DNA from: Ceratodon purpureus
Lineage: Eukaryota > Streptophyta > Bryopsida > Pseudoditrichales > Ditrichaceae
DNA: 64,000 nt
Assembly: GCA_014871385.1 (NCBI GenBank)
Contig: CM026423.1
Coordinates: 11,029,952-11,093,951 of the forward strand
Direction of reading: 5' to 3'
Both the position numbers and the translations under genes were made by a program. A model generated the notes under the pieces. The model was not told where the DNA came from and ran no database searches. It saw only the letters and a program-made list of their open reading frames with translations. The first letter of the stretch is position 1, and each line of letters begins with the position of its first letter. Shown piece after piece: positions 8,499 to 56,859 of the stretch.

Positions 8499-8602
8499 CC
8501 TGCTCACAACAAACAATAATATAATGAATTATACATTCCTTTAATTTTTTATTTTCATGGTACTATGGTATTAATTATAATTAGTATATGTAGATATAAA
8601 AG

Positions 8603-16253: not shown

Positions 16254-16640
16254 CTATCCGTGTTTGTTGACTGTTGCTCTGCTGTCTGTCCACACCCGAG
16301 CCAATTCAATAATCGGTTGGTAGCAGTCTTCCCTCGTAATATGCTCGACGGCCTCAAGACTCTTCAGCTCCGCCTCAGACACTAGGATCAAGTGTCGAAG
16401 AGTCTCCAGTCTACGGTGTCCACGGTACCAGCGGTTAAAGGCACTCTCTTTCTCCTGCCTTGCGTTCATAACATCACTGAGCTGCCTCCCCAGCCTCCTG
16501 TCGACATCAATGACACCACGCCTGTACCGTGTTGGAGCAAACATTTGGAGGAGGTTACCCAGAACATCTAATTCATTCTCATACTCTTCCTGCGCATCCC
16601 TCATTGCCTCACGAAGGATAGGTTCCTCTGCCTCAAGCAA
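16254..16640 (-). CDS. Hypothetical coiled-coil exon in the CACTA left arm
   Basis: 128 codons rich in Glu, Arg and Leu (starts MLEAEEPILREAMRDAQEEY) with heptad-like spacing that suggests a long alpha-helical coiled coil. It lies between duplicated blocks 1 and 2. An AG-like border precedes it on the minus strand, so it may be an internal exon and not start at the ATG. No family recognised. It could be a decayed part of a transposon-encoded accessory gene. Confidence 0.35.
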   Translation of the reverse strand: MLEAEEPILREAMRDAQEEYENELDVLGNLLQMFAPTRYRRGVIDVDRRLGRQLSDVMNARQEKESAFNRWYRGHRRLETLRHLILVSEAELKSLEAVEHITREDCYQPIIELARVWTDSRATVNKHG

Positions 16641-18413
16641 ATCTCATGTAACTCAAATCTCATGTTGTTAAGTTCCAATCTAACTACGAAGGTCGTTGTC
16701 TCTGCATGCAAAAGACGCTCCACACATCCTACCAAGTCGTCCATCTCGCATTCTCTCCTGGTTCTGTTCTCATAACGGATTGGATTCTACATTGGATGCC
16801 TTGGTATAGGCGACGTTGATACGATTTCGGAAAGAATAGGCGTGCATGGAAAGGAGAATAAGAAAAGAAAGTCCGCGTATACTCGTTCTCTCGTATCTCA
16901 AGTACACTCACAGTGCAACATAACCTGCCCATGATGACACACACGCCTAGTTCATAATGTCGAACATGACTTACCTGCATGAAAGGACTGATGTTGTACT
17001 AATTCGAGTATTGCATGAGTCACCAAAAGGTAGTCAGCGTTGTTTTGTGATCCGAAAGTATTCCCCTGGGAGAGCAAAAAAAAAAAAACATATTTCAAAG
17101 ACGACTGTGAGAAAAATACGGTGAGCAGTGCATCAATAAACGGACGACGCATTTTCGAGTTAAAATGATTCCTGATCATATTGAATTCATTAACTTTAAC
17201 ATTGGATGCAAAATGGTCCGACAGGTAAATCACTGGAGTGGCAAAAATAAACACCTTCGACTTACCCGCCACTACGTATGTTGATTCCTCCTTGGGTGAT
17301 GGAGAGAACATGCGCTCGGATAATAACACCGTCGTTGGAGACAGTCTGTATGTCCTACACAGACAATAATGAAAAATACTCCCAGCATTTCTAAAAATTC
17401 GCCACAAATATTTCGGTGTAACCAGATATGTATCTCAGAAACTGTCTCCTTATCAATGCACACTATCACGACAACAACACACGAATACAACATCCTTCGA
17501 CAATTCAAACAATTAACTTCATAGTATGTACACATACAATATAGATTGTATAACAAACTACGACAGAGCGAAGGAACGAAATACGGATCCATACCACTAT
17601 TGTGCTCCTGCCTTACCTTCCCATCAATCAACCTCCGCAGTTGGGACGAAAACTCAAAGCTTGGAATCATGGTTGCTTGAACGCAAACAGATACATCGGC
17701 GACTGAAACATAACCTTCGGAGAATCAAACATAATCGTGTTGAAGCAATATTATATCTACAAATGACTGAACGCTTTATAGGAACCCACCATTCATGGGA
17801 GTCATTCCGAATTGTCCCAGAAACTCGTTCTGCACCTCCAGTTCTCAAATTAAAGAGAAACTAAAACTTTCTTGAATCCTGGGATATCCGAAGGTATGCA
17901 GACACTACATGGTACTTGTCACCATTTTTTTCGTTAATTCATTATTCCTATCTATACAGAAAATGTGGAAATGAATTAATTAACTCTTCCATTATGAGTA
18001 TACTGAAATTTTCATTGTGCAATACTGCAATTTCTAGAATGACACGAAAGTTGTGAATATATCAAACCACTAATTCAGTTATTTCACCTGCTTGTTTTTT
18101 GCAGATGCGTCCTCCACAACATCTAAAGGAATTTGAGTCAAGTGAGATCCTCCATTAGCATTTACAGATCCGGTTTTTACAACATAATACCAGAAGCTTA
18201 AAAAAAAGAGTCATTAAGATGTCCTGTACGAAATTAGATACATACGTATAACGCAGTCAGATAGCATTGTTGTGATTCAAACCAAGCCTCCATGAATTTC
18301 ATGTAACACACAACATATCTTATTTCTATTCAGGAAATATAAGATTTGGGAAAAAGGGATGTATAAACAATGAATTAAGTAGAATCCCCTATTTCACATG
18401 AATGTCCTCAACT

Positions 18414-19079
18414 CTAATCGAAAATTACTACTCCCAGGTCATCTCCATCCCTCCCTGATATAAACGTATCCTCCTCTGGTAGTTCTCCTGTCGGATTACC
18501 GTCACGCAAGTCGCATTCTATCACCTTTAGTTTCGAGGTCCATCGGTCTCCGGACTCTACACACTCACAATCAAAGAATTTTGTGAGCTTGTGTCTTGGC
18601 AGGTGAGGACACCGTAGTCGCTTTGCTCTGACGCGGGCATCTAGAGGCAAACCACAACTTAGTCGGGGAAGCTTGCACTTACAATGGGGAAGAACTACCC
18701 ATCGCAAAGCGGTGCAGTACATGCACCTGCATGTGTTGCACAGGTGACGGTGATTCCGTCCAATCCAAATGGTCGTCGCGTCCCTCGGATAATGAAATTT
18801 CCTCGGTGCGCCCAACCCCGTTGATCTTAGATTATCGGGCTGTGAATACATATACCGAATAACATCAGTTTCTCTTTCTAGTGTCTAAGACGCCTCACGC
18901 ATTGGATCTATTCACAAGCAAGGACTATCTGACAATTTCTCAAGGCTCTAAGCTGATACATGTATTCATCAAAAAAGGGTATAGATACTCACATTTGCTT
19001 GGAGATTCTGATTGCCGCCCTGTCCATATGGTAGTTCACTTCCTTCGTTATTGAGAATCTGTTCTTGAGAGGTGGACAT
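18414..19079 (-). CDS. Two-exon Cys-rich protein of unknown family inside the CACTA element
   Basis: Exon 1 (18993-19079) starts MSTSQEQILNNEGSELPYGQ and ends with a GTGAGT donor. Exon 2 (18414-18839) follows a TATTCACAG acceptor in phase 0 and ends VVIFD with TAG, giving 170 residues. The middle is Cys/His-rich: HLCNTCRCMYC, then HCKC, C, CPH and FDCECV, probably a metal-binding module. The C-terminal 40 residues are acidic (GELPEEDTFISGRDGDD). It lies between duplicated segments of the left arm on the transposase strand. No known family recognised. It could be an element-encoded accessory protein or a captured host gene. The clean splice sites and open frame argue that it is or recently was functional. 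Confidence 0.5.
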
Positions 19080-20196
19080 TCTGAACGACCTTGTCCTGGT
19101 AAAGAACGGAAACAAACGTAAAACAGCAAAGGTGATCAATCGGAGAGCTCATACTGCTGGTACAAGCCATAGCCGACATTAGTATACCGAACTAAGAGAA
19201 AAGAAAGTCCATGTACACTCGGTATCTTGTTTCTCAAGTACACTCACAGTTCAACATAACTAGCCCATGATGACACACAAGCCTAATTTAAGTGTCGAAC
19301 ATAACTTACATGCATGAAAGGACTGATGTTCTACTAATTTGAGTATTGCATGAGTCACCAAAAGGTAGTCAGCGTTGTTTTCTGTTCCGAACGTATTCCC
19401 CTGGGAGAGCAAAAAAAAGTACATATATCAAAGGCAACTGTGAGAAAAATACGCTGAGCACTGCATCAATAAACGGGCGATGCATTTCTGCGTTAATATG
19501 ATTCACGATCATCTTGAATTCACTAATTTTAACATTGAATAAAAAATGGTATGATTGGTAAATCACTGGACTGTGGCAGAAATAAACGCCTTCAACTTAG
19601 CCGCCACTATGTATGTGGATTCAACCTTGGGTGATGGAGAGAACATGCGCCCGGATAATAACACCATCGTTGGAGACAGTCTCGATGTCCTACACAGACA
19701 AAAATGACATAAAGACCGACATATCCGAAGATAGGCAGACACTACTGTCTTCCATATGTTAGACTACGACATGATACCTGTCACCAATTTTTTGTTAATT
19801 CATCAATCCGGGCAATACAGAAACTGTGGAAATGAACTACTTAAATCTTACAATATGAGCATAGTAAAACCTTTCTTTCTATGGGAAAATTAAATTGGCA
19901 AACTATATGATTTGATCGCAAGGACTGATTTGTAAAACTGTCTCATATCCCACTATGATTGAAACAAGCTTAACGTACACACATTAAAAACCACCAAAAC
20001 AGTAATGCAACCTAAACGTTTCATCATATACACTAACGCATAAGCAACGACCGTTCCAGATATTTGTAACAGTCCAAAAAATACAAGTTTGGTGGACGGA
20101 TTTCTCTCCCGGATAAACATTACGTATTTGCATTCAGGAGAATGTTGACTGTTGATACTCACTTCACAATCCAAGAACCAGAGCTTGGACCATTTC

Positions 20197-21069
20197 TCAC
20201 TGTCTCCCTACCCGGCGCCGCTTATCCTGCCTTCTGTTCCCATGAACAGCCGAACCTGCTCTAGCTCTACTTCTAGTCTCGGAATCCGCAAAGCTCTGCA
20301 AAGCTAATGCATTTTCCGTTTCGTTCAGGATAATTGCACCCGTTAAATCCGGCTCCGATGGATAGTTCTCAAAGGTACTGCCAGGAACGTCGTCCACACT
20401 CTGAACATTAGTGGTAATATAAACATCGTCGTCCTCTTCCACTATTCTCCTAGACCGTGCTTCTTTACGTAGAATCACTTTCCACTGCGAACCTATACCA
20501 TGCAAATCATCGTGTGAAAAAAATACTTGACTGCATTGACTTGGGAAGACATATGGGTCAATGGCTCTGGAGGTGTTGTATCGAAAGTTCACTACAAGGA
20601 ACCCATCCGCATCACGTATGTAAGTCTCCCTTCTTAAGTGGTCATATTTCCTCTTCCACTCGCAGGAAAAAACTATTATTGGAGTCTTGATGTCACCATA
20701 ATCAAGTACAAAGATGTCCTTCAATATTCCAATGTAATCTTTTCCAGCACCCGCAGATTGCTCATTGGCTTCCAAGCACGCTACTCCACTGTCAAAGGTA
20801 TCCATGCTCCTGCTGGTTTCATCATCAACACGCCAGTGATTTCCATAGGCCGTCATCTTCGCATAACGCCTGCATACCATTGAGGGAGGATTGCAGAGAA
20901 GCACTAAGTCTGAATCATCTGGGTCAGACATATTCAGCTCCAATGAATGCACATGGCGCTTTATCCAAGCTTCAACGGGTCCAACAGCTCCGCCAGAGTT
21001 ATTCCATTCAGCATCCCATTTGCTGCATACCAAAATACCCGATGTAAATTCCCATTGGTCCGTGAGCAC
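20197..21069 (-). CDS. CACTA transposase 3' exon with DUF4216 domain
   Basis: 290 codons open to a stop at 20197; the first codon is GTG, so this is probably an exon whose acceptor lies just upstream. The core YIGILKDIFVLDYGDIKT, VVNFRYNTSRAIDPYVFPSQ and SQVFFSHD matches DUF4216, found C-terminal to TNP2 and DUF4218 in plant En/Spm transposases. The tail is basic (RRQDKRRRVGRQ). It is separated from the DUF4218 exon (35165-36069) by the nested gypsy element, and without that insertion would lie about 800 bp downstream of it. A strongly similar but decayed copy of its 3' end is at 15.6-16.2 kb. Confidence 0.8.
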   Translation of the reverse strand: MLTDQWEFTSGILVCSKWDAEWNNSGGAVGPVEAWIKRHVHSLELNMSDPDDSDLVLLCNPPSMVCRRYAKMTAYGNHWRVDDETSRSMDTFDSGVACLEANEQSAGAGKDYIGILKDIFVLDYGDIKTPIIVFSCEWKRKYDHLRRETYIRDADGFLVVNFRYNTSRAIDPYVFPSQCSQVFFSHDDLHGIGSQWKVILRKEARSRRIVEEDDDVYITTNVQSVDDVPGSTFENYPSEPDLTGAIILNETENALALQSFADSETRSRARAGSAVHGNRRQDKRRRVGRQ

Positions 21070-21790
21070 CGAAACAATTCTTGGAGATATGACTCTTCAT
21101 TATATCATGCATTATATTATCGTTTCTCACAGTACTGTACAGACTGTAGTACATATGGCAATTTTAAATTCAGGTGTCCGTCGACCATAAGAGGCACAAA
21201 TTCCCTACACTTCTCATGTTCAGGTAATTACGAACAAACACTTTTTTCGGTACAATATGGCACAATGTATAAATAGAAGCAAACCGTGAAGTTATAGAGT
21301 ACTCTCTTTTTACGGATTGTCTCCATTAAAAAAATTGTACATGCCCACTAAACAAACAATTTAAACCTTCGATTCACAGTGATCACTACATCGGTGTGAT
21401 CTAAGCAGCAGCAAAACAGAGTATTTGTGGGATCCGAGAAACTCAGAATAAACCAGAAAAGCCCCAGCCGGCGTAAGTATTCCATGAATTTTTCATTTTT
21501 TTTGGTTAATTAGGTAAAAACTGGCCAGACACTAGCAGCATTAGTAGTTAACGCAAACCGGATACTCCAGAAACGTTAAAACAGTTAACGCAGGAAGTGT
21601 TCCCGGAACCTGGATTCCGGAAACTCGGAAGATAAGAGACGGAACGGGTGGACGATCCGAGTACTGACCGTTACTGTAACCGCGTCAAGGATCCGAAGCG
21701 ACGCGGAAGTCATCATGACTCGGATAGGCGTTTACCCGGTACGTTGGCGGCTGCAATTACGGGCCGCCACATCGTTTATTATGCCTGGGG

Positions 21791-21798
21791 TATATAAG
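21791..21798 (+). promoter_or_regulatory. TATA box of the gypsy 5' LTR
   Basis: TATATAAG preceded by GC-rich sequence and followed about 150 bp later by the LTR ORF start. Identical element in the 3' LTR at 31508-31515. Transcription would start near 21820-21830, so the LTR ORF would be the first ORF on the element RNA. Inferred from sequence only. Confidence 0.7.
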
Positions 21799-21949
21799 CG
21801 AGGGTGTTAGGGTTTGGAGTTCCTTTTTGCGAACTGGGAGTAGAGAGTGAAAGAGCGGTGAGGTGTCTTTGTCTTTTCCGATTCACCGGCAGTTGGATTG
21901 CCGGGTTTCTTGCTGTCGGATCGTAGAGGGAGAGAAGTGAGGAGTAGAG

Positions 21950-24145
21950 ATGGCGCGCGTACAGTGTTGCGTCCTTAGCCCCGGAACTCCAGTGAAGGAA
22001 TCGGATATGGAGGAACTGATCACCGACCTCACTCGGATGAGGTGTGAGGGATTGTTGGCACGACCGTGGTTACTGAAGAGTGAGGTGATGGTGAGGGAGG
22101 TCCTGGAAGGTCCGGACAACCGGTGGGATAATACGATCCGAGGCAAGCCCACGCTGTGGAATGCGGAACAGTGGGCGGAAGCTTACGGTTTCGAGCAGAA
22201 GGGACTCCTTTGGGCGACCCGGACGGATCAGTACGTGCAGGATAGGTTCCACGGGAAGATCCATAGGAACAATGGATACGAGATAGACGCCTGCAAGGAT
22301 AGGAGGCAGAGGCAGGTCTTAGCTTTCCTCGTCCCGATCCTATATCCGCAGAAACCGGCACAAGTTACCATTACGGTCGGGAATACCATCCTCGGAGCGT
22401 ATACAGGAGAACGTCCGGTGAATTGGGCTGCACTCATGGCGGAAGTGGTGCAGAAGATGGTTCCGACGATCAGAAAGAAGCCGACCCTACTCTCCCCTTA
22501 CCTCTTTCACCTTTACCATGCGTATGACTTGCTGACCGATAAGGAGGACGAGACGTATACGCACGCGAAGAACTGCCTCAACTTCTCGGAGATTCCGCCC
22601 GGAATGGAACCCGATCTGCGAGGTGAGCCCTCTGATACAACGGACTCGGAAGATGAGGACGATACGAGGGAAGTTCCGAACCCTGGCGCTGCTAGGGCTC
22701 AGTCCAGATCGCGATCGGAGCAGCCTGCGTCACGACATGCGGAGCCGTCTACGGCCCGGGGAGATCCGGAACGGAGAGAGGTCAGTTCCGATCGGGGATT
22801 TCCGGTGGACCTGTTTCGGGGGATTCGGGAGGAGACTCACCGGGCGCAAGCTTCTTACGATCGGATCGAAACACTGTTCCGGAGGGTCTGTACAGCGCTG
22901 GGAGGGTGCTTACCGGAAGAGGTGATCCGAGAAGTGGAGTTGTTGAAGGATGCCCCAACTCTCCGGAGTGAGAAGAAGCGGCTGGAGCTTCAGTTGCAGG
23001 AGCTGACGAAGGAGCTGGCGGCAAAGAGTGACGAGATCCGTAAGTTCCACGCCGAGCAGGAGGAGACTTTGGGGGAGCTTCGGAAGTTGGTGGGAAGTTC
23101 GGGAGCGGTAATCAACAAGGCCCGGCTGTTCGATGAGAACGTAGTGCAGCCGGCTGATTTCGAGGACAAGCAGAAGATCATCAAGATCCTCTCCAAATGC
23201 GAGCACTCGATGAACATGATCCTGAAGAAGGTCCGGCAGCTGCTCAATCCGAGCACCGGAAGTCCCAGTCTCGTAGTCGCTGGCCGGGGCCTTCCGCTCC
23301 CCGGATCGCCCTCTCGTGCCGTGGTAGGAGAATCTCGTGGAGTGGGGTTCCGAACCCCGATAGGGAGTAACCTCCAAGTCGAGGAGCGGATGACGGTCGA
23401 AGAGGCCGCCATGACAAATCGGATGATTGCGGAGGCGATCCGAGAACACCAAGCACCAGTGGTGTCACCCGGAACCAGTACAGTCCAGCAGGGCTGCGCG
23501 ATCCCCAGAGGACAGGTGCAGGTGACCGGAACGACAGTCACCGAGAGGCGGATCGAGGAGAGGACGGTTTCGGAACAGGTGACTAGGACCGTACCGCCGG
23601 ATGTTCTTCCACGACTCGGAGAGGAGGTGATCATTGCGAATTACCGAGGGGAGATAGCGGGACCAGAATGGGGACGACCTATTTCACCACCCGGACGGAC
23701 CCGAGTAACTCAGGAGGGGGGATTGACCCCTTCACCCACAGCCAAGACCAGAACGGTGACGCCTACTCCCACCGGAACGCCAGCAGCGGGTTCCCCTCCG
23801 AACACTGTCGGTGATTTCCGGAGGTTGCGGAAAAGGAAGGAGCCGATTACGATTTCCGAATCCGACTCAGAGACGCATGGGAGCTCTCCGGTCAGGACCA
23901 CCGGAACTGAAACTCAGACTCCGACGTCCGGAACTCCTCCCGCACATATGATCCCGAAATCGCCCAATTCTCCCAAGCCCCGGATCGTTACCCGGTTGTC
24001 TTTGGAGGCTCAGGAGAGGGAGTCAAAGGCGGAACGGAGTGCTAGGCGCAAGGCGGCACGAGCAGCAGGGGCGGGCGGATCAGAGCCGCGGGTGACCAGG
24101 TCGAAGGATCGCGAGCAGGAGAGCCACAAGAAGACAAAGAAGTGA
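21950..24145 (+). CDS. LTR-encoded 731-residue protein of unknown function (5' LTR copy)
   Basis: Starts MARVQCCVLSPGTPVKESDM at an ATG in purine context (GAGATGG) and runs uninterrupted. Residues about 1-225 look globular (LWNAEQWAEAYGFEQKGLLW, VLAFLVPILYPQKP, NWAALMAEVVQKMVPTI). Residues about 225-290 are acidic then Ser/Arg-rich. About 325-400 form a probable coiled coil (EKKRLELQLQELTKELAAKS). About 440-680 are Pro/Thr/Gly-rich. The C-terminus is strongly basic (RSARRKAARAAG to KKTKK), like a nuclear localisation or nucleic-acid-binding tail. No enzyme motif and no match to gag, pol or env is evident. Location inside the LTR, near the start of the transcript, suggests an extra leader-type protein. 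Function unknown. Confidence 0.85.
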   Translation: MARVQCCVLSPGTPVKESDMEELITDLTRMRCEGLLARPWLLKSEVMVREVLEGPDNRWDNTIRGKPTLWNAEQWAEAYGFEQKGLLWATRTDQYVQDRFHGKIHRNNGYEIDACKDRRQRQVLAFLVPILYPQKPAQVTITVGNTILGAYTGERPVNWAALMAEVVQKMVPTIRKKPTLLSPYLFHLYHAYDLLTDKEDETYTHAKNCLNFSEIPPGMEPDLRGEPSDTTDSEDEDDTREVPNPGAARAQSRSRSEQPASRHAEPSTARGDPERREVSSDRGFPVDLFRGIREETHRAQASYDRIETLFRRVCTALGGCLPEEVIREVELLKDAPTLRSEKKRLELQLQELTKELAAKSDEIRKFHAEQEETLGELRKLVGSSGAVINKARLFDENVVQPADFEDKQKIIKILSKCEHSMNMILKKVRQLLNPSTGSPSLVVAGRGLPLPGSPSRAVVGESRGVGFRTPIGSNLQVEERMTVEEAAMTNRMIAEAIREHQAPVVSPGTSTVQQGCAIPRGQVQVTGTTVTERRIEERTVSEQVTRTVPPDVLPRLGEEVIIANYRGEIAGPEWGRPISPPGRTRVTQEGGLTPSPTAKTRTVTPTPTGTPAAGSPPNTVGDFRRLRKRKEPITISESDSETHGSSPVRTTGTETQTPTSGTPPAHMIPKSPNSPKPRIVTRLSLEAQERESKAERSARRKAARAAGAGGSEPRVTRSKDREQESHKKTKK

Positions 24146-25088
24146 TAGATTCCTCTCACTGCCACTTGTCGTAACTTTCCGGATTTATAGGAGTAGATTC
24201 CGGATCGGGAGATCCGTCCTAGTCGTAAAGTAGAATTCTGGGTAGATAGTTAGGGATTAGGGTTTTGATTGAACTGTCGGCGCCGCCGCTTTGTGAAAGC
24301 CCCTGCTTACTTAAACCGGGCAGGCGATGCGGTCCGGGTCTTCGTTTTGCATGTTTTCCCCCTATATTCCTTATCAGTAAAGTATTTGTGTTTTGTAAGT
24401 ACTGTGCGTGATTTCCCGCTAAGTGTGAATGATCCGGGAAGGATATGAGAGTTCCGCTGTAGCTCGGATAGGAAGGTGATGGGAGTTGCGACGAGACCCG
24501 AATCGGAAAGGAAATGGGATTGAGCGGAAAGATTTAGCTGATTGTCGTAGGAGTGAAGCCTCACTGTTCCGTCCCCAAATCAACCTCATACGGAATAGCC
24601 GTCGCTAGGGTCGAAGCGGATCAAGAACTACTTGGTCGGGCTCCCTGAACTTCTGAAGAGGTTCCGTGCATAGTGAGAGGGGGAGTCGGAACGTGGTACG
24701 GGTCGCCTAGGGATAATCGGATCCTGGTTCTCCCAGATCCGGATTGGTTTGTCGTTGTAGTCCCACGGATCGGGGAGGATCGTTTGTGTGACCTGCTGGC
24801 CAGAGTACTCTAGGACAGTTGTGAGACGGTAACTGATCCGAGACGTTGGGGTTTGTGGACGAAACACCTAATGAGAGAAGAATAGAGAAGGAGATAGTTC
24901 GGGAGTTACGTTCCGAAGACACTATCCGAGCAGTGGCAAGGCTCGGAACGATTAGAAGTAACTACTTGGTGAAACACTATTGAATCCCTGGACGATACTC
25001 GGAACCTAGTGACAGTACGGAAGTTTACGCTCAATTAGAGCACTATCCGGATGTTAGTTGCGTTTCCGTGTTCCGACACGTAAAAATC

Positions 25089-25106
25089 TGGCGCCGCTGC
25101 CGGGGA
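25089..25106 (+). other. gypsy primer-binding site (tRNA-Asp type)
   Basis: TGGCGCCGCTGCCGGGGA, 10 bp after the 5' LTR. It matches, with one difference, the TGGCGCCGTTGCCGGGGA site used by Athila-type plant gypsy elements and is complementary to the 3' end of tRNA-Asp. Confidence 0.85.
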
Positions 25107-25117
25107 TTCGATAAGCT

Positions 25118-26947
25118 GTGAACCAGGTGGATACTCGGGAGATACGTGAGCGCAGATTTAAAGAAAAGTGGAGTCAGACCGTGAAGGCTTCATTTAGGTG
25201 GATATGCGGTAGGCGGAAGTCTTACGTGCAGATCCTGCCTTCCGAGGAATCGGAAGAAGAATTCCCAATCTCTTCCATGGTTGGGGCGCAACCGGAAGAG
25301 TTAGGGGGAAGAAGATCCACTCGGTTGCTACAGAAGAGGGGAAAAGTCTTGGTACACGATCTACCGGGAACGAATCTACTTCCCCGGATCCAGACTGCTG
25401 TAGAACGAGAAGGAGACGTAATCGTGGTATCGTTGGCCGGAACCTCCGCAGCCGGAACAGGTACAGCTCCAGATCCGGAAGAGGAAGAAGTCGTAGCTGA
25501 CGAAGTCGAAGCCGACGCAGGAGTAGAAGAGGAGACCGAGGAAGAGGAAGAAGACGAGGAAGACAATCCAATGGCACCCTCTACCAGACTGAAGTACAAC
25601 CGATTCAAAGGAGACGGAAGTCAAGACGTGGACGAATGGCTCTGTGAGTTCGAATCCATTGCTCTGGCCAATCAGGAAGATCCGGATGCGAAGAGAAGGA
25701 TATTCCAAGGTCTTCTGAAGGGAGAAGCTCTACAGTGGTACCAAGACGTTCCGGAACGCACACGTAACGACTGGACCAGTTTCGTGACCTTGTTCCGACG
25801 TACGTTCCGTGAGGCCGGAGGAGAGGCTCGCGCACTCGGAAAGCTGAGTCGGATGACGATGAGATCTTCCGAGTCAGTACGGAAGTACAGTCAGAGAGTA
25901 AAGGCGCTCATACAGAAACTCACTACAGCCATAGCTCCGAGTGTACAAGTGGAATGGTTTGTCGCCGGATTTCCAGAGGAGATGGGGTTTCAGATCCGAC
26001 AAACCCGTCCCGCCACACTCCAGGAAGCCGTGGAAGCGGCTCAGAACTATGAGAACTCGGCCCAATCCCTACGGAAGTCTCTGAAGCATACCGAGAAGCG
26101 GGGCAAGAAGATCCGGAAGGAGAGAGAGCGCCGTCGGAGGCACGAGTCCTCCTCGGAAGATTCCGACTCTACCAGTAAGAGCGATTCCACTTCATCCAGT
26201 TCCGATCAGTCGGAAGAGGACTCCAGGGGAGCCTCGAAACGCCGAGGCGGCTCCAGTAGAGACACCCGGCCAAGACGGAACCGAGAGTTGATCAAGGTGA
26301 AAGTGGAGGATGACGATTCTCGGAAGGTCATGAAGGAGATGAAGGAGATCCGAGAATCGATTGCCGAACTCAACGTCCACCTTTCCGAGAATCGGAAACC
26401 TCGTAAGATGATTCCCACCAGCAGAGCTAATGTGTGGTGTGCTAACTGCGGAAAGCAAGGACATTATCCTCCGGAGTGTACTGAACCCCGCCAGAAACGT
26501 ATCCACTACGTCCATCCGGAAGAAGAAGTGTACTTTGCCTATCCGGAAGAGGAAGAGTTTCAGATGGAGGAGTATCAACCTGTATATCAGGTTCAGACCA
26601 CTTACGGACGGGGGAAGGCTCCGATCCAGATAGCCCGTCCTCCCGCCGGATACCGGATCCCACAGAACGTTCCGGGTAGGCCGATGTACCCGAAGCCGAC
26701 CCACGGGTACTGCTTTAACTGTGGGAGCCCGGATCATTACGCACCTAACTGTCCGTTTGAGCGACAGGGGCAGGGAGCACCGCGGATCCTTCCGTGCCAA
26801 AATTGCGGAGAGTACGGTCATACGGCTCCTCAGTGTGCCAAACCGGCACAACCCCGCCCGACTTTCAAACAGGTGGAGGTCCCTCCGAGAGAGATGACTG
26901 GGGTAAACTATGGTCACTCGGGTGGGATAGAGAATCCGGACAAATGA
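25118..26947 (+). CDS. gypsy gag
   Basis: 609-codon frame from a GTG at 25118; the likely ATG is a little downstream. Glu-rich N-terminal region, then a Retrotrans_gag capsid domain (STRLKYNRFKGDGSQDVDEW through about residue 325), a Ser/Arg/Asp-rich linker, and three CCHC zinc knuckles: CANCGKQGHYPPEC, CFNCGSPDHYAPNC and CQNCGEYGHTAPQC. It forms the virus-like particle and packages the element RNA. gag and the following pol frame are adjacent and in register, an arrangement some retroelement families express by read-through. Looks whole. Confidence 0.9.
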   Translation: MNQVDTREIRERRFKEKWSQTVKASFRWICGRRKSYVQILPSEESEEEFPISSMVGAQPEELGGRRSTRLLQKRGKVLVHDLPGTNLLPRIQTAVEREGDVIVVSLAGTSAAGTGTAPDPEEEEVVADEVEADAGVEEETEEEEEDEEDNPMAPSTRLKYNRFKGDGSQDVDEWLCEFESIALANQEDPDAKRRIFQGLLKGEALQWYQDVPERTRNDWTSFVTLFRRTFREAGGEARALGKLSRMTMRSSESVRKYSQRVKALIQKLTTAIAPSVQVEWFVAGFPEEMGFQIRQTRPATLQEAVEAAQNYENSAQSLRKSLKHTEKRGKKIRKERERRRRHESSSEDSDSTSKSDSTSSSSDQSEEDSRGASKRRGGSSRDTRPRRNRELIKVKVEDDDSRKVMKEMKEIRESIAELNVHLSENRKPRKMIPTSRANVWCANCGKQGHYPPECTEPRQKRIHYVHPEEEVYFAYPEEEEFQMEEYQPVYQVQTTYGRGKAPIQIARPPAGYRIPQNVPGRPMYPKPTHGYCFNCGSPDHYAPNCPFERQGQGAPRILPCQNCGEYGHTAPQCAKPAQPRPTFKQVEVPPREMTGVNYGHSGGIENPDK

Positions 26948-26953
26948 CGGTTC

Positions 26954-29900
26954 GTGACGGAACTACAGGAGGGCGCGGAAGTACCAGTACACAGAGTATC
27001 AACCCGTAGTTCCGCTAGAGAACGTGCCCAGGAACCGGAACTTCCGAAATCCCGGAAGACCAGGAGGAGGGTAAGATCCAGAAGAGTGGATTCGGATTCG
27101 GGATCCGAACCCTCTACGGTAACCAGAGCTTTACCAGAAGAAAATGACCGTCCAAGAGCGGAAAATGGGGTGGAAGGAGGGAACCTTCCGGAAGATATCA
27201 GCGAGGAAGTTCGGAAAGAACTCACGGATCCCCCTGTCCGGAAGATCACCAAGCCTTCGGTCCGGTTTGATGACGTTCCGGTGATTATTCCTTCCGATCC
27301 CAGAGTGGACGAGTATGACATTCTTGGGGACATCAAATCCCTCAAGGCAAATGTCACGATTGGACAGTTGCTCCATGACAATGTGAATTACCAGAAGGTA
27401 ATCCGAGAGGCATGGACAAAGCGGAGGCGCCGAGGGGTGAAACTTCCGTCTGTAGCTACTAATTTCTTACAGGTTGAGGATCACGGAGCCCCGGAACTGA
27501 CAGTGCTAATAGAAGGATGTGCTATCCCGAAAGTTCCGGTAGATGGAGGATCCGGTGTGAACCTGATGTTGGAGGATACGGCCTTTGAACTCGGATACAC
27601 CTCGTTCGAACCCACCGATCAGGTGTTACGAATGGCGGATCAATCTAGAGTTAAACCCGTGGGAAGGTTGTCCCAAGTTCCGACCACGATCGGAGAGGTA
27701 ACCTACCTCTTGAATTACGTGATAATCCGAGTTAGTACGGGCCGTCCCTTCCCGATGTTGTTGGGAAGACCCTGGCTATACATGGCACGAGTGCTCGTTG
27801 ATTGGGGAGCCAAGGAGTTCGTACTCGGAAAAACCAATCAGCGGATTCCGTGGAAGATGGATGGATATCTAGGGGAAACCAGTGGCTCGGATGGGTATAC
27901 GTCTGATTGGTCCGACCCGGAAGAGGAGGATGACGAAGTATTTAGTTATTTCGTGAATCAGTTCTCGGAAGTTACCGACGATGACTTCCGATTTCATAAT
28001 CCGATCAGTGAGCAACCCCAACCATCATCGGAGCGCGTGAAATTCCCGGTACTGGAGGATCGCTCTCTCGGAGAGGGAAGTGTTCCACTCTCAGCCGAAT
28101 GGTTCCGACAACAGGTCGAGGAGGGAAACCTGCCCGCCATGGGTCTCGATCCGGACACCCCTGTCCGGGTATGGAGCGCATGGACGGATCAGGGAGAGGA
28201 ACAGGAATCGGAACGAGTCAAGAACGTTGTGAAACCATCCGACTATGAGAAGGTGGAAGTAGCCCTCGGAAAGACGTTTCTGCTAGGGCGAAGCATGAGC
28301 AAGGAGCAGAGAAAGGAGTATGTGGATTTACTAAAGGAATATTTAGACGTATTCGCTTGGTCACCCTCCGACCTCAAGGGAATACCTCCGGAACTCGGCC
28401 AACATCATATAGACTTGGTTGATGGATCAGTTCCGGTCAGACAACGCCAGTACAGGCTCAATCCGAAGTATTCTCTGATGGTGAAGGAAGAGATCGATAG
28501 CCTCCTGAAAGCCGGATTCATTTATCCGGTAAATAATTCCGAGTGGGTATCGCCCATAGTCGTCGTTCCGAAGAAAGTTGGCTCGGATGGGAAAGTCAAG
28601 ATCCGAGTTTGTCAAGATTTTCGGAAACTGAATGCGGCCACAAAGAAGGATTACTTTCTGTTACCTTTTACGGACATTATCCTCGATCACGTGGCAGGGC
28701 AGGAGTGCTACAGCTTTCTTGATGGATTTTCCGGTTACAACCAGGTGTCGATCCGGGAAGAAGATCAGCTGAAGACGACCTTCACCACAGAATGGGGGAC
28801 GTTCGCCTTCAACAGAATGCCCTTCGGACTGTGTAACGCTCCCGGAACATTCCAAAGGCTGATGGTGGATATTTTCCGAGATTTCTTGAGGCATTTTCTA
28901 GAAGTCTTCATCGATGACTTCGCGGTGTTTAGTAAGTGGAAGGAACATCTCGAGTACCTCCGAAGGACCTTCCAGAGGTGCAGGGAAACCGGACTGAAAT
29001 TACACCCCGGAAAATGTTTTATGGGGATGATTTCCGGAATTCTTCTCGGGCACATCGTAAGTCGGAACGGGTTGGAAGTCGATTCGGATAAGGTACGAGC
29101 TATCCTTATTCTAGTGTCTCCCACCAACGTCCGAGAGGTCCGGGGATTCCTAGGATGCGTCGGATACTACAGGAGGTTTATTATTGCGTATGCCAAATTG
29201 GCAGCCCCATTAACGGAACTGTTGAAGAAGGAAGAAGAGTTTTTGTGGACGGAACGGAGACAGCAGGCGTTCGAGGAACTGAAGAAGGCCCTGACCACCG
29301 CTCCGATCCTATCAGCACCAGATTGGTCGAAGGAATTCCATGTGACAATCGACGCTTCCGGGTGGTGCCTAGGGGCGATTCTGTGGCAGCAAGGGGAGGA
29401 TCGGAAGGAGCATCCGATCTATTATGCTAGCAGGCAGATGAGCCTTGCGGAACGGAAATATACTACCACTGAACGGGAAGCCTTGGCGGTAGTATACGCC
29501 TGCAAGAAGTTCCGACACTACCTTCTCGGATACAAGATCGTGTTCCATACGGATCATGACTCCCTGAAGTATTTGGTGAACAAACCGGACCTCTCAGGGC
29601 GTATTGCACGATGGATCTTGCTGCTCCAGGAATTCAACTACGAGGTAGTAGTGAAACCGGGTAAGGCCAATGCCAACGCTGACTACCTGTCAAGGATGCG
29701 AGGCCCGGAAGCAGTCTCGGACATCACCGCCACGTTTCCGGATGAGTTTCCGGAAGAGGCGGAGGTATTTCACATTTCCGGAACGGAGAACTCCGATTAT
29801 TCGGAGATTATCCAGTATTTAACACAACGGAGGTACCCGGAGGGATTTACGCGGGAGGAGAAGATGGTATTTCAGAATACAGTAGCTCCTTTCACACTGA

Positions 29901-31106
29901 TCCGAGGAGTACTTTTCCGGATGGGACCGGATGATGTATTACGGAGGTGCCTCGAGGAATCTGAAAGAAGGCAGGTCATGAGGGCCTTATACGCCGGACC
30001 CTCGGGCGGCCATTTCGCCTCGGAGACAACCATCAAGCGAATCCGATCAGCCGGATATTGGTGGCCTTACCTCTCCCGAGACGTGAAGGAATTCGTAGGG
30101 CAGTGTGACCAGTGTCAAAGAACCGGGGCACCCTCGTTCCGAAACCACTGGCCCCTCACTCCTATTATCCCCTTGGCTCCGTTTGAAAAATGGGGGATAG
30201 ACTTTATCGGACCGATCAATCCGGTCACAGCCCGGAAGAGGAGATACATTATCCTGGCTACGGATTATGCGACCAGATGGGTAGAGGCAAGAGCAACGGT
30301 GAAAAATGACGCCGCAGCCGCAGCCACATTTCTCTTTGAAGAAATAATGATGAGATTTGGACATCCGTTAGAACTGGTGAGTGACCGGGGAAAACATTTC
30401 CTAAACGATGTCATCATCAATATTACGGAACGGTATCTCATCAAGCACCGGAAGACGACCCCTTATCATCCGAAACTTGAAAGCGAATGGACTGACGGAA
30501 CGAGCCAATGGCATCGTCGGAAAGATTCTGAACAAGATGGTCTCGGCTCATAAGACGGATTGGGATCGGAAGCTCCCTTCAGCTGTACACGCCTACAATA
30601 CCAGCGAGAAGAAAACCATGGGTAAGAGTCCTTTCTTCCTAGTTTTTGGACAATCCGCAGTTCACGGAGTGGAGCTGGAGGTAGAAACCTTACGGGTTAT
30701 GGCTGCCCGTCACGGGACGAGAGTCGAGGATCCGGGGTACCGGATCGTGGCATTACAGGATCTGGAAGAAGTCAGGAGAGGCGCTCTACAGCAGGCTGTA
30801 GATGTCCAGGCAAAACGTAAGGAGACCTACGACAAAAGAATTCCTAAGGACAATAAGGTGATAGAAGGAGGCTTGGTGCTCTTATACGATAATCGGCACC
30901 AAAAGTTTCCGGGAAAGTTACATACGAGATGGATGGGACCTTACCGGGTTACGCGGATCTTTGAGAACGGATCATTACAACTGGCGGACCTCCAGGGAAA
31001 TAGCTTCGAAACCCGGGTGAACGGATCCCGAGTGAAGAATTACAACCCTGAGGAGTTCACAGACACCGAAGGAAGCGAAAGCCCGGAAGGGGAGGAAGAA
31101 GAATAG
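26954..31106 (+). CDS. gypsy pol (protease, RT, RNase H, integrase), nearly whole
   Basis: Visible in order: a retropepsin-type motif (VDGGSG, near 27540), reverse transcriptase with IRVCQDFRKLN and the catalytic FIDDFAVF (near 28910), RNase H (TIDASGWCLGAILW, near 29350), and integrase with an HHCC-type zinc-binding region (QCDQCQRTG), core WGIDFIGPI and VSDRGKHF, and a C-terminal region ending near 31106. RT before integrase makes it Ty3/gypsy. No chromodomain is apparent after integrase. As a fossil it appears to carry about one break. Confidence 0.9.
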
Positions 31107-31142
31107 TGTTCGCGGGGACTCTCACATTTGAAAATGGGGTAA

Positions 31143-34100
31143 TGTGGGATCCGAGAAACTCAGAATAAACCGGAAAAGCCCCAGCCGGCGTAAGTATTCC
31201 ATTTATTTTTCAATTTTTTTGGTTAATTAGGTAAAAACCGGCCAGACACTAGCAGCATTAGTAGTTAACGCAAACCGGATACTCCAGAAACGTTAAAACA
31301 GTTAACGCAGGAAGTATTCCCGGAACCTGGATTCCGGAAACTCGGAAGATAAGAGACGGAACGGGTGGACGATCCGAGTACTGACCGTTACTGTAACCGC
31401 GTCAAGGATCCGAAGCGACGCGGAAGTCATCATGACTCGGATAGGCGTTTACCCGGTACGTTGGCGGCTGCAATTACGGGCCGCCACAGCGTTTATTATG
31501 CCTGGGGTATATAAGCGAGGGTGTTAGGGTTTGGAGTTCCTTTTTGCGAACTGGGAGTAGAGAGTGAAAGAGCGGTGAGGTGTCTTTGTCTTTTCCGATT
31601 CACCGGCAGTTGGATTGCCGGGTTTCTTGCTGTCGGATCGTAGAGGGAGAGAAGTGAGGAGTAGAGATGGCGCGCGTACAGTGTTGCGTCCTTAGCCCCG
31701 GAACTCCAGTGAAGGAATCGGATATGGAGGAACTGATCACCGACCTCACTCGGATGAGGTGTGAGGGATTGTTGGCACGACCGTGGTTACTGAAGAGTGA
31801 GGTGATGGTGAGGGAGGTCCTGGAAGGTCCGGACAACCGGTGGGATAATACGATCCGAGGCAAGCCCACGCTGTGGAATGCGGAACAGTGGGCGGAAGCT
31901 TACGGTTTCGAGCAGAAGGGACTCCTTTGGGCGACCCGGATGGATCAGTACGTGCAGGATAGGTTCCACGGGAAGATCCATAGGAACAATGGATACGAGA
32001 TAGACGCCTGCAAGGATAGGAGGCAGAGGCAGGTCTTAGCTTTCCTCGTCCCGATCCTATATCCGCAGAAACCGGCACAAGTTACCATTACGGTCGGGAA
32101 TACCATCCTCGGAGCGTATACAGGAGAACGTCCGGTGAATTGGGCTGCACTCATGGCGGAAGTGGTGCAGAAGATGGTTCCGACGATCGGAAAGAAGCCG
32201 ACCCCACTCTCCCCTTACCTCTTTCACCTTTACCATGCGTATGACTTGCTGACCGATAAGGAGGACGAGACGTATACGCACGCGAAGAACTGCCTCAACT
32301 TCTCGGAGATTCCGCCCGGAATGGAACCCGATCTGCGAGGTGAGCCCTCTGATACAACGGACTCGGAAGATGAGGACGATACGAGGGAAGTTCCGAACCC
32401 TGGCGCTGCTAGGGCTCAGTCCAGATCGCGATCGGAGCAGCCTGCGTCACGACATGCGGAGCCGTCTACGGCCCGGGGAGATCCGGAACGGAGAGAGGTC
32501 AGTTCCGATCGGGGATTTCCGGTGGACCTGTTTCGGGGGATTCGGGAGGAGACTCACCGGGCGCAAGCTTCTTACGATCGGATCGAAACACTGTTCCGGA
32601 GGGTCTGTACAGCGCTGGGAGGGTGCTTACCGGAAGAGGTGATCCGAGAAGTGGAGTTGTTGAAGGATGCCCCAACTCTCCGGAGTGAGAAGAAGCGGCT
32701 GGAGCTTCAGTTGCAGGAGCTGACGAAGGAGCTGGCGGCAAAGAGTGACGAGATCCGTAAGTTCCACGCCGAGCAGGAGGAGACTTTGGGGGAGCTTCGG
32801 AAGTTGGTGGGAAGTTCGGGAGCGGTAATCAACAAGGCCCGGCTGTTCGATGAGAACGTAGTGCAGCCGGCTGATTTCGAGGACAAGCAGAAGATCATCA
32901 AGATCCTCTCCAAATGCGAGCACTCGATGAACATGATCCTGAAGAAGGTCCGGCAGCTGCTCAATCCGAGCACCGGAAGTCCCAGTCTCGTAGTCGCTAG
33001 CCGGGGCCTTCCGCTCCCCGGATCGCCCTCTCGTGCCGTGGTAGGAGAATCTCGTGGAGTGGGGTTCCGAACCCCGATAGGGAGTAACCTCCAAGTCGAG
33101 GAGCGGATGACGGTCGAAGAGGCCGCCATGACAAATCGGATGATTGCGGAGGCGATCCGAGAACACCAAGCACCAGTGGTGTCACCCGGAACCAGTACAG
33201 TCCAGCAGGGCTGCGCGATCCCCACCGGGCAGGTGCAGGTGACCGGAACGACAGTCACCGAGAGGCGGATCGAGGAGAGGACGGTTTCGGAACAGGTGAC
33301 TAGGACCGTACCGCCGGATGTTCTTCCACGACTCGGAGAGGAGGTGATCATTGCGAATTACCGAGGGGAGATAGCGGGACCAGAATGGGGACGACCTATT
33401 TCACCACCCGGACGGACCCGAGTAACTCAGGAGGGGGGATTGACCCCTTCACCCACAGCCAAGACCGGAACGGTGACGCCTACTCCCACCGGAACGCCAG
33501 CAGCGGGTTCCCCTCCGAACACTGTCGGTGATTTCCGGAGGTTGCGGAAAAGGAAGGAGCCGATTACGATTTCCGAATCCGACTCAGAGACGCATGGGAG
33601 CTCTCCGGTCAGGACCACCGGAACTGAAACTCAGACTCCGACGTCCGGAACTCCTCCCGCACATATGATCCCGAAATCGCCCAATTCTCCCAAGCCCCGG
33701 ATCGTTACCCGGTTGTCTTTGGAGGCTCAGGAGAGGGAGTCAAAGGCGGAACGGAGTGCTAGGCGCAAGGCGGCACGAGCAGCAGGGGCGGGCGGATCAG
33801 AGCCGCGGGTGACCAGGTCGAAGGATCGCGAGCAGGAGAGCCACAAGAAGACAAAGAAGTGATAGATTCCTCTCACTGCCACTTGTCGTAACTTTCCGGA
33901 TTTATAGGAGTAGATTCCGGATCGGGAGATCCGTCCTAGTCGTAAAGTAGAATTCTGGGTAGATAGTTAGGGATTAGGGTTTTGATTGAACTGCCGGCGC
34001 CGCCGCTTTGTGAAAGCCCCTGCTTACTTAAACCGGGCAGGCGATGCGGTCCGGGTCTTCGTTTTGCATGTTTTCCCCCTATATTCCTTATCAGTAAAGT

Positions 34101-34795
34101 ATTTGTGTTTTGTAAGTACTGTGCGTGATTTCCCGCTAAGTGTGAATGATCCGGGAAGGATATGAGAGTTCCGCTGTAGCTCGGATAGGAAGGTGATGGG
34201 AGTTGCGACGAGACCCGAATTGGAAAGGAAATGGGATTGAGCGGAAAGATTTAGCTGATTGTCGTAGGAGTGAAGCCTCACTGTTCCGTCCCCAAATCAA
34301 CCTCATACGGAATAGCCGTCGCTAGGGTCGAAGCGGATCAAGAACTACTTGGTCGGGCTCCCTGAACTTCTGAAGAGGTTCCGTGCATAGTGAGAGGGGG
34401 AGTCGGAACGTGGTACGGGTCGCCTAGGGATAATCGGATCCTGGTTCTCCCAGATCCGGATTGGTTTGTCGTTGTAGTCCCACGGATCGGAGAGGATCGT
34501 TTGTGTGACCTACTGGCCAGAGTACTCTAGGACAGTTGTGAGACGGTAACTGATCCGAGACGTTGGGGTTTGTGGACGAAACACCTAATGAGAGAAGAAT
34601 AGAGAAGGAGATAGTTCGGGAGTTACGTTCCGAAGACACTATCCGAGCAGTGGCAAGGCTCGGAACGATTAGAAGTAACTACTTGGTGAAACACTATTGA
34701 ATCCCTGGACGATACTCGGAACCTAGTGACAGTACGGAAGTTTACGCTCAATTAGAGCACTATCCGGATGTTAGTTGCGTTTCCGTGTTCCGACA
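31143..34795 (+). repeat. gypsy 3' LTR (3,653 bp) containing a 731-codon ORF
   Basis: Near-identical copy of the 5' LTR with the same length, ends, TATA position and ORF. It is followed directly by the right-hand GTATT target duplication. Confidence 0.95.
31667..33862 (+). CDS. LTR-encoded 731-residue protein of unknown function (3' LTR copy)
   Basis: Second copy of the LTR ORF, same length and open throughout, with a handful of amino-acid differences from the 5' copy. The absence of stops in both copies shows the frame was open at insertion. Same architecture: globular N-terminus, acidic/Ser-Arg linker, coiled coil, Pro/Thr-rich region and basic tail. Confidence 0.85.
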   Translation: MARVQCCVLSPGTPVKESDMEELITDLTRMRCEGLLARPWLLKSEVMVREVLEGPDNRWDNTIRGKPTLWNAEQWAEAYGFEQKGLLWATRMDQYVQDRFHGKIHRNNGYEIDACKDRRQRQVLAFLVPILYPQKPAQVTITVGNTILGAYTGERPVNWAALMAEVVQKMVPTIGKKPTPLSPYLFHLYHAYDLLTDKEDETYTHAKNCLNFSEIPPGMEPDLRGEPSDTTDSEDEDDTREVPNPGAARAQSRSRSEQPASRHAEPSTARGDPERREVSSDRGFPVDLFRGIREETHRAQASYDRIETLFRRVCTALGGCLPEEVIREVELLKDAPTLRSEKKRLELQLQELTKELAAKSDEIRKFHAEQEETLGELRKLVGSSGAVINKARLFDENVVQPADFEDKQKIIKILSKCEHSMNMILKKVRQLLNPSTGSPSLVVASRGLPLPGSPSRAVVGESRGVGFRTPIGSNLQVEERMTVEEAAMTNRMIAEAIREHQAPVVSPGTSTVQQGCAIPTGQVQVTGTTVTERRIEERTVSEQVTRTVPPDVLPRLGEEVIIANYRGEIAGPEWGRPISPPGRTRVTQEGGLTPSPTAKTGTVTPTPTGTPAAGSPPNTVGDFRRLRKRKEPITISESDSETHGSSPVRTTGTETQTPTSGTPPAHMIPKSPNSPKPRIVTRLSLEAQERESKAERSARRKAARAAGAGGSEPRVTRSKDREQESHKKTKK

Positions 34796-35164
34796 GTATT
34801 GTAAAAAATCTGTTTTTAATAAAAATGTGCAGACAACTAGCCACTGTTCAGTTATATTCATCAATATATAGTGGGTGTTGTAGAGTGCGTTGTGTACCAC
34901 TCCTAAACTACATTTTGTTACGACAGACGTGAAGGAACACGGGCAAAACAGTATACGGTGAGTAGACTTAGGCAGTAAATAAACGTACCTCAAATAAGTT
35001 GAAGGGAATTGATACTTCATAGGAGAGACCGAGCATAATTACATGATGAGGCCGAATATCATGGGGATACTAGGAGTACTAAATATTACAGTGCACCAAA
35101 TTAGTTGAAAGCTACAAACCTACTTTCAAACTTCAAAGGCTACAACCCAGTCTAGTTACTGTAC

Positions 35165-36069
35165 CTGTACAATGCTGCAGTGAGTGTGTTGTTCCTCAAT
35201 ACAAACTTGTGAATCGCATCGCGTTGCGCACGGCTGAGAGTGAAATCTGCTGGTGCTCCTTCCAGCACTTCATACTCGGCAGAGTCTTCGGGATCGGCAT
35301 CCCACACTCTGCGCCTGACAACATTGAAACCATGCATATACGAGGTTGCAAACCCCATTGTTTCATCTAGTAAATACCCGTGGGCAATGGATGCTTCCGG
35401 TCTTGCACGTTTTTTCACATGATTTTTTAATGTCATCATAGTGCGCTCAATTGGGTACATCCAACGTACCTGTGTAGGACCCAGTATGATCAACTCTTCA
35501 ACCAAATGCACTGGTAGATGAGTCATAATATCAAAGAACGTCGGGGGGAAGGTCATCTCCAAAAGACACATCGTGATAGCCACATCCTCACGCAAATTCT
35601 CCTCCTGCAACGGGTCCCAAACCTTGCAACAAAGCCTCCTAAAAATCCTACAAACTCTCATGATTGCATATCTCGTATTCTGATCCATAAGTCCTCTTAA
35701 TGCTAAGGGAAGTAGTGTCTGCATCAGAATATGATAGTCATGCGATTTCAGTGCTCCAAACTTCTTATTCCTAATATGAGACTCTATGTCAGAACAATAC
35801 TCTGAAGGCACTTTCAAATTTTCTAACCTTGTGCAAAAGATATCAAACTCTCTAGGGGTTAGCACATAGTTAGCAACAGGTTTAAGCATTCTTGATTCAT
35901 TGTTAGGATCCCTAGTCATCCAAAGGTGTGGACGAATACCCTCCCGTTGCATATCTCGTCTAACCTTCACACTGTCTTTCTCCTTTACACCACAGATTGT
36001 TTTGAGCAAATTCTCCGCAAGATTCTTCTCGCAGTGCATGATATCCAGAGAATTCCTTATTTCCAGATG
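35165..36069 (-). CDS. CACTA transposase exon with DUF4218 domain
   Basis: The exon opens after a TGTGGCAG acceptor with HLEIRNSLDIMHCEKNLAEN and contains PREFDIFCTRL, LPVHLVEELIILGPTQVRWM and YPIERTMMTLKNHVKKRARP, typical of DUF4218, which follows TNP2 in plant En/Spm transposases. Donor at 35163-35164. It joins in phase to the TNP2 exon (SIFFDLPYWE at 37588) across a 1.5-kb intron. Downstream exons are interrupted by the gypsy insertion at 34796. Part of the transposase that cuts and inserts CACTA ends. Confidence 0.85.
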
Positions 36070-37587
36070 CTGCCACAGTCAAGAACAAAAAATGATGTTA
36101 AACATAATGTCTCTGCAAATGTAGAATGGAATTAATGTAATACAGAAAACATGAAATACAAACTGGGTATGAAAATAGTTAACATGGATGCAATATGCAG
36201 TAAACATGCACAATCCGTCGGTAATGTTGAGCTCATATCAAGTTAACAAATACTCTGTCCCAAATAACAAATTCTTAGTTAACTGTCCTTGTACAGGACA
36301 AAAAATCTGTGCTTGTACGGTTACCCCCCACACAAGTTCAACCCGACAGTGATGTACAATACATAGATATCAAGTTTCTTATTAGTCAGTCCAGAATAAC
36401 AAAGTCGATGTGAATAGTGATTTTGAAAAAATTGAATATAGGGCTTATACCATGACTCCCAAATTGTTAAATCCGACAGGCATTTCAATGGAAAAAATTC
36501 AAGTTCTAGACCACTGCCCTCCGGCCATAATATCAGAAATAATTTATGATTCTACTACATTTACTATAATACTTAATTCTCGAAATCACTACTGACTAAT
36601 ACTCATTCATCCCATACGTATTGATTGACTCCTGGATTGTTAATTTCACTTTAGGTCAATGCAAATGCTCAGAAACAATCTGAACACATGTTGTCGTCTT
36701 CAGAAACTCAATTAATGCCTCCTACAGCAAAATTTGGCAAATCAAGCATCCCGAGAACGACAGTGACTCAACGATGCATACTACTGCACCCCAGATATAT
36801 TGTGCTTATCATATGTTGTCAAAACATTAAAGCAAGTATAAGATTCCGAAGATTATAAGACTTAAAATAAATAGTGCATTAAATAAATTTTATGAGAAGA
36901 CACGAAAACCTGACGTGATTAGTCCTTTAAATATCTTGAAAACAAAAGTAAATATTTATAAGATATTAATTTCTAAAAAATTGTAAGTAGGATCAGATGA
37001 TTCTATAACATTCTGAACTCAATATTGCAGCATACAAAGATGGTAACAGATAACTACAACGGTCCAAAAAAATAAAAAAAATTCACCAGCAATTCAGTGA
37101 ACAGTAAATGGGTTGGAGTGCATCTAACAAATTCCGGACTTCTGACTGTTAATTGAAACTGTCTCTGACGTAATGCTAGCAGAATTTCATTTTGTGACGA
37201 ACACATCAGTAGTGAAAACCAGTAGCACACAATTAAACATGGACATGGTAGTTTTTAATCTTTGAAACAAATAGCGATTCGCCTTGTCATGATCGAATTA
37301 AAAATTATGTAAACATGGAGCAAGTACCGAGAAAAAAAACTAAACGCTTAAAAATATGCCTTCACAGCACTATTATCGTGACGTGCATTAATTATAGGTG
37401 TTGGGAAAATTGTATCCAGAGCTACAACCCCTGGCAATTTTCGTCCATGAAGTGGGGGTTTATTTTTTAAATCGTGGCTACCCCAATAAACAATCAAAAC
37501 ATCCAGTGGAAAACAACATAAAGCTTCAAAAAAATACTAAACCAGTATTGATAGAAAAAACATGATAAGGAATCGGAAACTGCTTAC
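36070..37587 (-). other. Intron of the CACTA transposase gene
   Basis: 1.5-kb AT-rich intron between the TNP2 exon (GT donor at 37586-37587) and the DUF4218 exon (AG acceptor at 36070-36071). No other gene or repeat recognised inside. Confidence 0.7.
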
Positions 37588-56720: not shown

Positions 56721-56859
56721 CAAATTTACAACGGCAATCTAGAAGATGAGATACCACACTACTTCTCGGCATTTCGAAAAACCGATAACATGATATGAAG
56801 GCTGCTAAATAGCCGAAGGAATCATAGAGACCTGTCAGTGCATTCCAACTCCACCGCAT

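Follow-up and report, generated by a model that had tools for sequence, protein, structure and literature searches.

Can a long terminal repeat (LTR) of a plant retrotransposon hold a gene that selection keeps, and if so, what might its protein do? This question is raised by a 64,000-nucleotide stretch of the Ceratodon purpureus genome (GenBank assembly GCA_014871385.1, contig CM026423.1, positions 11,029,952 to 11,093,951; here, the window), in which positions 21426 to 34795 are occupied by a gypsy-type LTR retrotransposon whose two ends are both present. Here, we report that its paired LTRs (termini TGTGGGAT...TTCCGACA) each carry an open reading frame (ORF) of 731 codons that is a selected gene, and that the short word CGGAW is packed into nearly all parts of the element.

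An earlier note on this DNA had described a young element with one uninterrupted 731-codon frame in both of its ~3.65-kb LTRs, downstream of the LTR TATA box, and each point was borne out. The same frame was open in both LTRs (Table 1), which differed by 19 substitutions and no gaps in a global alignment (K = 0.0052). The LTR has a sole TATA[AT]A, and the next ATG after it is that of the ORF. When the LTR was dinucleotide-shuffled 1000 times, the longest ATG-to-stop ORF averaged 131 codons and never exceeded 349, which puts the frame far beyond chance. AGTAAA and a GT-rich stretch follow about 230 bp past the stop, so that the LTR looks, on these signals, like a self-contained gene. Three of the 19 LTR differences fell within 5 bp (23508-23512 / 33225-33229), two of them in one codon, which they altered; the cluster is possibly a multibase event or conversion with another copy.

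The genome (362 Mb; 362,488,568 bases) was scanned for copies of the LTR ORF. Young copies were scored among the best 61 of 2162 first-look candidates: all 61 matches spanned residues 1 to 731, 58 were without a stop, and 19 same-strand pairs lay 9710 to 9717 bp apart, the pattern that an ORF in each LTR should give. Older copies were found with a relative 55% identical (P0007) as the query; 12 of these 65 rows had no stop, and 53 had one to ten. The stops were mostly TAG and TGA, which methylated DNA decaying by C-to-T change would be expected to yield.

Ratios of nonsynonymous to synonymous divergence (dN/dS; Nei-Gojobori) were taken over 16 young copies from loci L001 to L058 and nine diverged, still-open ORFs (L059 to L067) of 12 loci, 10 of which had been chosen for an ORF without a stop; for L062, reading began at codon 20, the start of its longest ATG frame, and L068 to L070 (one opens late, two have stops) were left out, so the estimates describe intact copies. 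Against the nine diverged ORFs, dN/dS was 0.24 to 0.27 (dS, 0.23 to 0.64), with 0.15 to 0.22 in the N-domain, 0.06 to 0.14 in the coiled coil, and 0.28 to 0.46 in the linker and tail; among the 16 young copies, mean dN over mean dS was 0.14. The earlier note had asked for ratios well below 1 and for copies free of frequent stops; the first was found between subfamilies and among the young copies, and the second held for the young copies but failed for the older ones. A comparison of the window element's own LTRs showed seven changed codons, six of them nonsynonymous, as expected after insertion. This neutral-looking change and the stops in older rows would suit a functionless long frame, open through composition or youth, but the low dN/dS with its domain-specific constraint refutes that idea as a general explanation. 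The deep conservation of the protein and the shuffle maximum also speak against it, and we regard it as scarcely credible. Because older copies carry stops, dN/dS is far below 1, and the LTR-LTR changes look neutral, we conclude that single insertions decay and that the lineage of active elements retains the protein, which selection keeps at the level of the element.

Solo LTRs were recognized by the same 5 bp flanking one LTR on both sides. There were 17, namely, 7 of 20 LTRs cut out in one set and 10 of 12 diverged ones; L009 to L038 were clipped before the LTR end and unscored, and L060 had no recognizable LTR end. In 12 of the 17 (L046, L050, L054, L056, L058, and L061 to L067, with L062 again from codon 20), the ORF was open over 721 to 740 codons, a figure that is not a genome share, given the preselection of 10 of the 12 diverged places for an ORF without a stop. 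A solo LTR can keep the complete ORF, as had been claimed, and presumably carries promoter activity. On contig C1, three LTR ORFs were evenly spaced by 9711 bp (18185450, 18195161, and 18204872; L047 and L048); the middle LTR (L048) had a polypurine-like stretch before it and a primer site after it, and two elements seem to share it. Many of the listed copies lay on a single very large contig (C6; 110,524,308 bp), which is probably a sex chromosome.

Word counts revealed an element full of CGGAA, CGGAT, and their complements. Positions 21426 to 31142 held 237 CGGAW/WTCCG sites (63 expected from dinucleotides), about one per 41 bp, and the 3' LTR held 91 (23 expected), versus 66 (54 expected) and 70 (68 expected) in the flanks; counts per kb rose and fell stepwise at the element ends. 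Coding parts were compared with 500 shuffles in which amino acids and codon usage were held fixed (gag read from codon 25280; the pol stretch around the frame change left out). The LTR ORF had 47 sites (21.3 expected; standard deviation, 3.7; shuffle maximum, 36), gag had 43 (16.4 expected; maximum, 25), and the main pol piece had 89 (34.9 expected; maximum, 51). The small C-terminal piece of pol, with 11 (5.8 expected), did not exceed its shuffle maximum of 12, and five control ORFs in the window showed no excess. Both strands and each of the three codon phases had sites. The noncoding DNA of the LTR had 42 sites in 1457 bp, and CGGA was followed by A or T in 42 of 43 cases, versus 22 of 44 for [AGT]GGA (Fisher P = 2e-7); a pyrimidine preference before CGGAW was not significant. 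The sites were not in tandem repeats. Presence on both strands and in noncoding DNA speaks for recognition of the word as double-stranded DNA, not RNA. We know of no parallel to such saturation.

The excess was kept in relatives. All 12 diverged LTR stretches retained it in noncoding DNA (21 to 38 sites versus 5.5 to 8.1 expected), and the 11 diverged LTRs whose longest frame had at least 566 codons retained it in that frame (35 to 50 sites versus 16 to 21). For this comparison, noncoding DNA meant a fixed 500 bases before and 900 after the ORF, stretches that are truncated in L009 and L019. Because the ORFs of L001 and L059 have just 24 sites in common (of 47 and 42), density is maintained through gain and loss of sites. 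A test at 4-fold degenerate sites pointed weakly in the same direction (10/39 versus 97/245; P = 0.11), with only L066 reaching P = 0.007. The word might instead be the site of a host factor, or reflect a host mutational or targeting bias, with the role of the LTR ORF unrelated; the LOB-domain family is one candidate for such a factor, and it was not confirmed when checked. An excess in L069, a relative with ~50% protein identity, fits this account, but the flanks and control ORFs of the locus do not, and a mutational bias should also have affected the flanking CACTA element. We rate it as improbable.

The globular N terminus and coiled coil foreseen in the earlier note were backed by predicted models. 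Pfam gave nothing at an E value of 1 for the LTR ORF protein (P0001), and its matches across the protein and 14 members were weak only, most of them resembling coiled coils or low-complexity sequence. A sequence search of PDB returned mainly coiled coils, none of the matches being convincing; Foldseek searches of PDB and BFVD gave no significant match; and VIA-align of the poor full-length model returned coiled-coil and EF-hand fragments, with VANC21 absent. No relatives were found in viral contigs or in prokaryote genomes. Structural comparison of the N-domain gave a lone and weak match, VANC21 with DNA.

Passages of two papers (PMC5735166 and PMC10398659) describe VANC proteins as binding short motifs in noncoding parts of their own VANDAL family, with loss of methylation and mobilization, and a passage of a third (PMC12859917) mentions unpublished VANC-DNA structures. 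As with VANC of the Mutator-like VANDAL transposons of Arabidopsis, the window element encodes its own protein, and a short word has accumulated in its noncoding DNA; the weak N-domain match to VANC21 may or may not reflect a shared fold. It differs in being a gypsy LTR retrotransposon with the gene inside the LTR; no DUF1985 was found in the LTR ORF (14 members at an E value of 1; six proteins at an E value of 10); CGGAW is dispersed, not tandem, and also lies in coding DNA; and the word is common to the examined subfamilies, whose protein has diverged.

The reading we consider the most likely, and hold tentatively, is that the LTR ORF protein and CGGAW form a self-recognizing anti-silencing system, because a possible VANC fold is encoded in the LTR and a CpG-containing word is written into nearly all parts of the element. 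Transcription from the LTR TATA box would yield a capped RNA in which the 731-codon ORF begins at the first AUG; together with the candidate poly(A) site, this would make a self-contained gene of every LTR, whether solo or paired. Its product would be a sequence-specific DNA-binding regulator whose N-domain and coiled coil bind CGGAW on both strands, coding sequence included; the bound protein might coat or mark the element's own DNA and counter methylation or heterochromatin, by analogy with VANC on VANDAL. With the gene inside the LTR, every insertion would bring two copies, and a recombined solo LTR could be a source in trans.

Two other roles for the protein were weighed against this anti-silencing system. 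It could act on the LTR promoter via CGGAW, as a transcriptional activator or an enhancer-binding regulator, with no effect on methylation. The word is dense in the U3- and U5-like stretches, and the basic tail and coiled coil suit a regulator. The noncoding LTR of L001 was 87 to 96% identical to those of five relatives (L059, L061, L063, L065, and L066) despite an ORF dS of 0.25 to 0.64, and so appears to evolve more slowly than synonymous ORF sites, which also fits. An activator, however, has no need of sites throughout gag and pol, and we consider this role unlikely. The protein could also have an accessory role in the virus-like particle, in its structure or in packaging, with CGGAW serving another purpose. 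Constraint on the protein is strongest in the long coiled coil, and were the genomic RNA to begin at the 21791 TATA box, translation from its 5' end would yield the protein; we give this role only a small chance. Among the functions guessed in the earlier note, silencing suppressor and regulator gained support from the weak VANC21 match and the CGGAW saturation, and structural protein gained none.

A start of the genomic RNA at a weaker TATA-like site past the ORF (24185) may instead put the ORF in U3, where sag of mouse mammary tumor virus (MMTV) lies. Ten ATGs occur in positions 24146 to 25290, the last of them being the first in-frame ATG of gag (25277), so that gag translation would require an extra step for either transcript start. 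In the window copy, gag and pol lie in one frame, separated by a single in-frame TGA followed by CGG (26936-26960); a UGA-CGG context is leaky in some plant viruses. A readthrough hairpin was sought downstream of this TGA, and the 8-bp helix there was not significant (fold z, -1.17). The usual domains were matched in gag and pol (Pfam). Pol had reverse transcriptase, RNase H, and integrase and no chromodomain among matches at an E value of 1, as in non-chromovirus gypsy elements of the OTA (Athila/Tat) group; the extra, archaeal-type RNase H of Tat was not among its matches. Because RT_RNaseH and RT_RNaseH_2 were the only RNase H models matched, this content argues against Tat, not against Athila.

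Table 1. Parts of the window element and of its LTR-encoded protein (positions are those of the window)
Feature	Position	Strand	Remarks
Left target-site duplication	21421..21425		GTATT
CGGAW/WTCCG-saturated domain	21426..34795		Density shifts at element ends; counts in text
5' LTR	21426..25078	+	3653 bp
U3-like stretch	21426..21790	+	5' of TATA box; 11 CGGAW sites (30 per kb)
TATA box	21791..21797	+	Sole TATA[AT]A of LTR
LTR ORF	21950..24145	+	731 codons
LTR ORF protein parts			Globular N-domain, 1-212; acidic linker, 213-289; coiled coil, 290-432; basic low-complexity tail, 433-731 (residues)
Second TATA-like site	24185..24190	+	TTATAG, weaker; possible transcript start 3' of ORF
Candidate poly(A) signal	24376..24381	+	AGTAAA, then GT-rich stretch
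U5-like stretch	24401..25078	+	24 CGGAW sites (35 per kb)
Primer binding site	25089..25110	+	Resembles complement of a tRNA-Asp 3' end
gag frame	25118..26947	+	Retrotrans_gag, CCHC knuckles; first in-frame ATG at 25277
pol	26954..31106	+	Reverse transcriptase, RNase H, and integrase, the last interrupted by a frame change in window copy
Polypurine tract region	31107..31142	+
3' LTR	31143..34795	+	3653 bp
LTR ORF, second copy	31667..33862	+	731 codons
Right target-site duplication	34796..34800		GTATT

Parts of a CACTA-type transposon on the minus strand flank the retrotransposon on either side (DUF4216, 20197-21069; DUF4218, 35152-36039; tnp2, 37537-39849), as if it had inserted into that transposon (20197-39849). 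No further pieces of the retrotransposon were found in the remaining window (tblastn). Elsewhere in the window, an ORF at 7413-8516 (minus strand) had a weak match to Tet_JBP oxygenase (E value, 1.6e-7, under the curated cutoff), unexpected at a land plant locus. Two diverged sets of direct repeats (84 to 92%; spacing, 2.3 and 4.2 kb) lie at 15583-20410. At 56328-60377, an ORF (57345-58055) is enclosed by two inverted repeats, one with 286-nt arms that are 98% complementary and separated by 3.5 kb, the other of 112 nt.

An LTR-encoded protein, doubled at every insertion, has a likeness in MMTV Sag, the U3-encoded membrane glycoprotein of an animal retrovirus; the analogy is one of arrangement, not descent, and no similarity to the LTR ORF protein is claimed. 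Among plant elements, Ogre, Retand, Athila, Grande, and SIRE likewise encode an extra protein besides gag and pol (eORF/aORF), which in Grande is described as nuclear and with its own promoter (passages of PMC6317226 and PMC7264820). The review PMC7264820 treats such ORFs as part of the internal region, in most cases in the gap separating pol from the 3' LTR, whereas the window ORF is wholly within both LTRs. Rice Retrosat2 is described in passages of PMC3485330 as having LTRs of >3.2 kb, an R region of ~2 kb, and, upstream of gag-pol, an additional ORF0, which is reported from grasses only; PMC6317226 places the element in the Tekay chromovirus lineage. It shares the long LTRs and the upstream extra ORF, but those passages of PMC3485330 do not place ORF0 in the LTR. 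Titles and abstract beginnings in the open-licence PMC literature gave no case of an ORF within a plant LTR and were mostly of MMTV and animal papers; the plant phrase "gene within the LTR" there meant a host gene inside a whole retrotransposon, and PMC11963269 and PMC9033089 had no matching passage on LTR ORFs. What is new is thus an extra-ORF retrotransposon with its ORF in the LTR; extra-ORF elements as such were already known.

A selected gene wholly in the LTR turns solo LTRs from dead scars into possible working genes, and an element-wide word that persists in coding and noncoding DNA although its sites turn over is a directly testable self-recognition code. It is possible, though we hold it as doubtful, that a large family of plant LTR retrotransposons combines an LTR-encoded anti-silencing factor of the VANC fold with an element-wide CGGAW code. 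If so, that code would have been written into gag, pol, and the element's own gene by synonymous choice, and every insertion and solo LTR would be a two-part counter-defense unit that supplies the factor and is also its target. Should the protein counter silencing, plant retrotransposons and DNA transposons would have reached the same logic of counter-defense.

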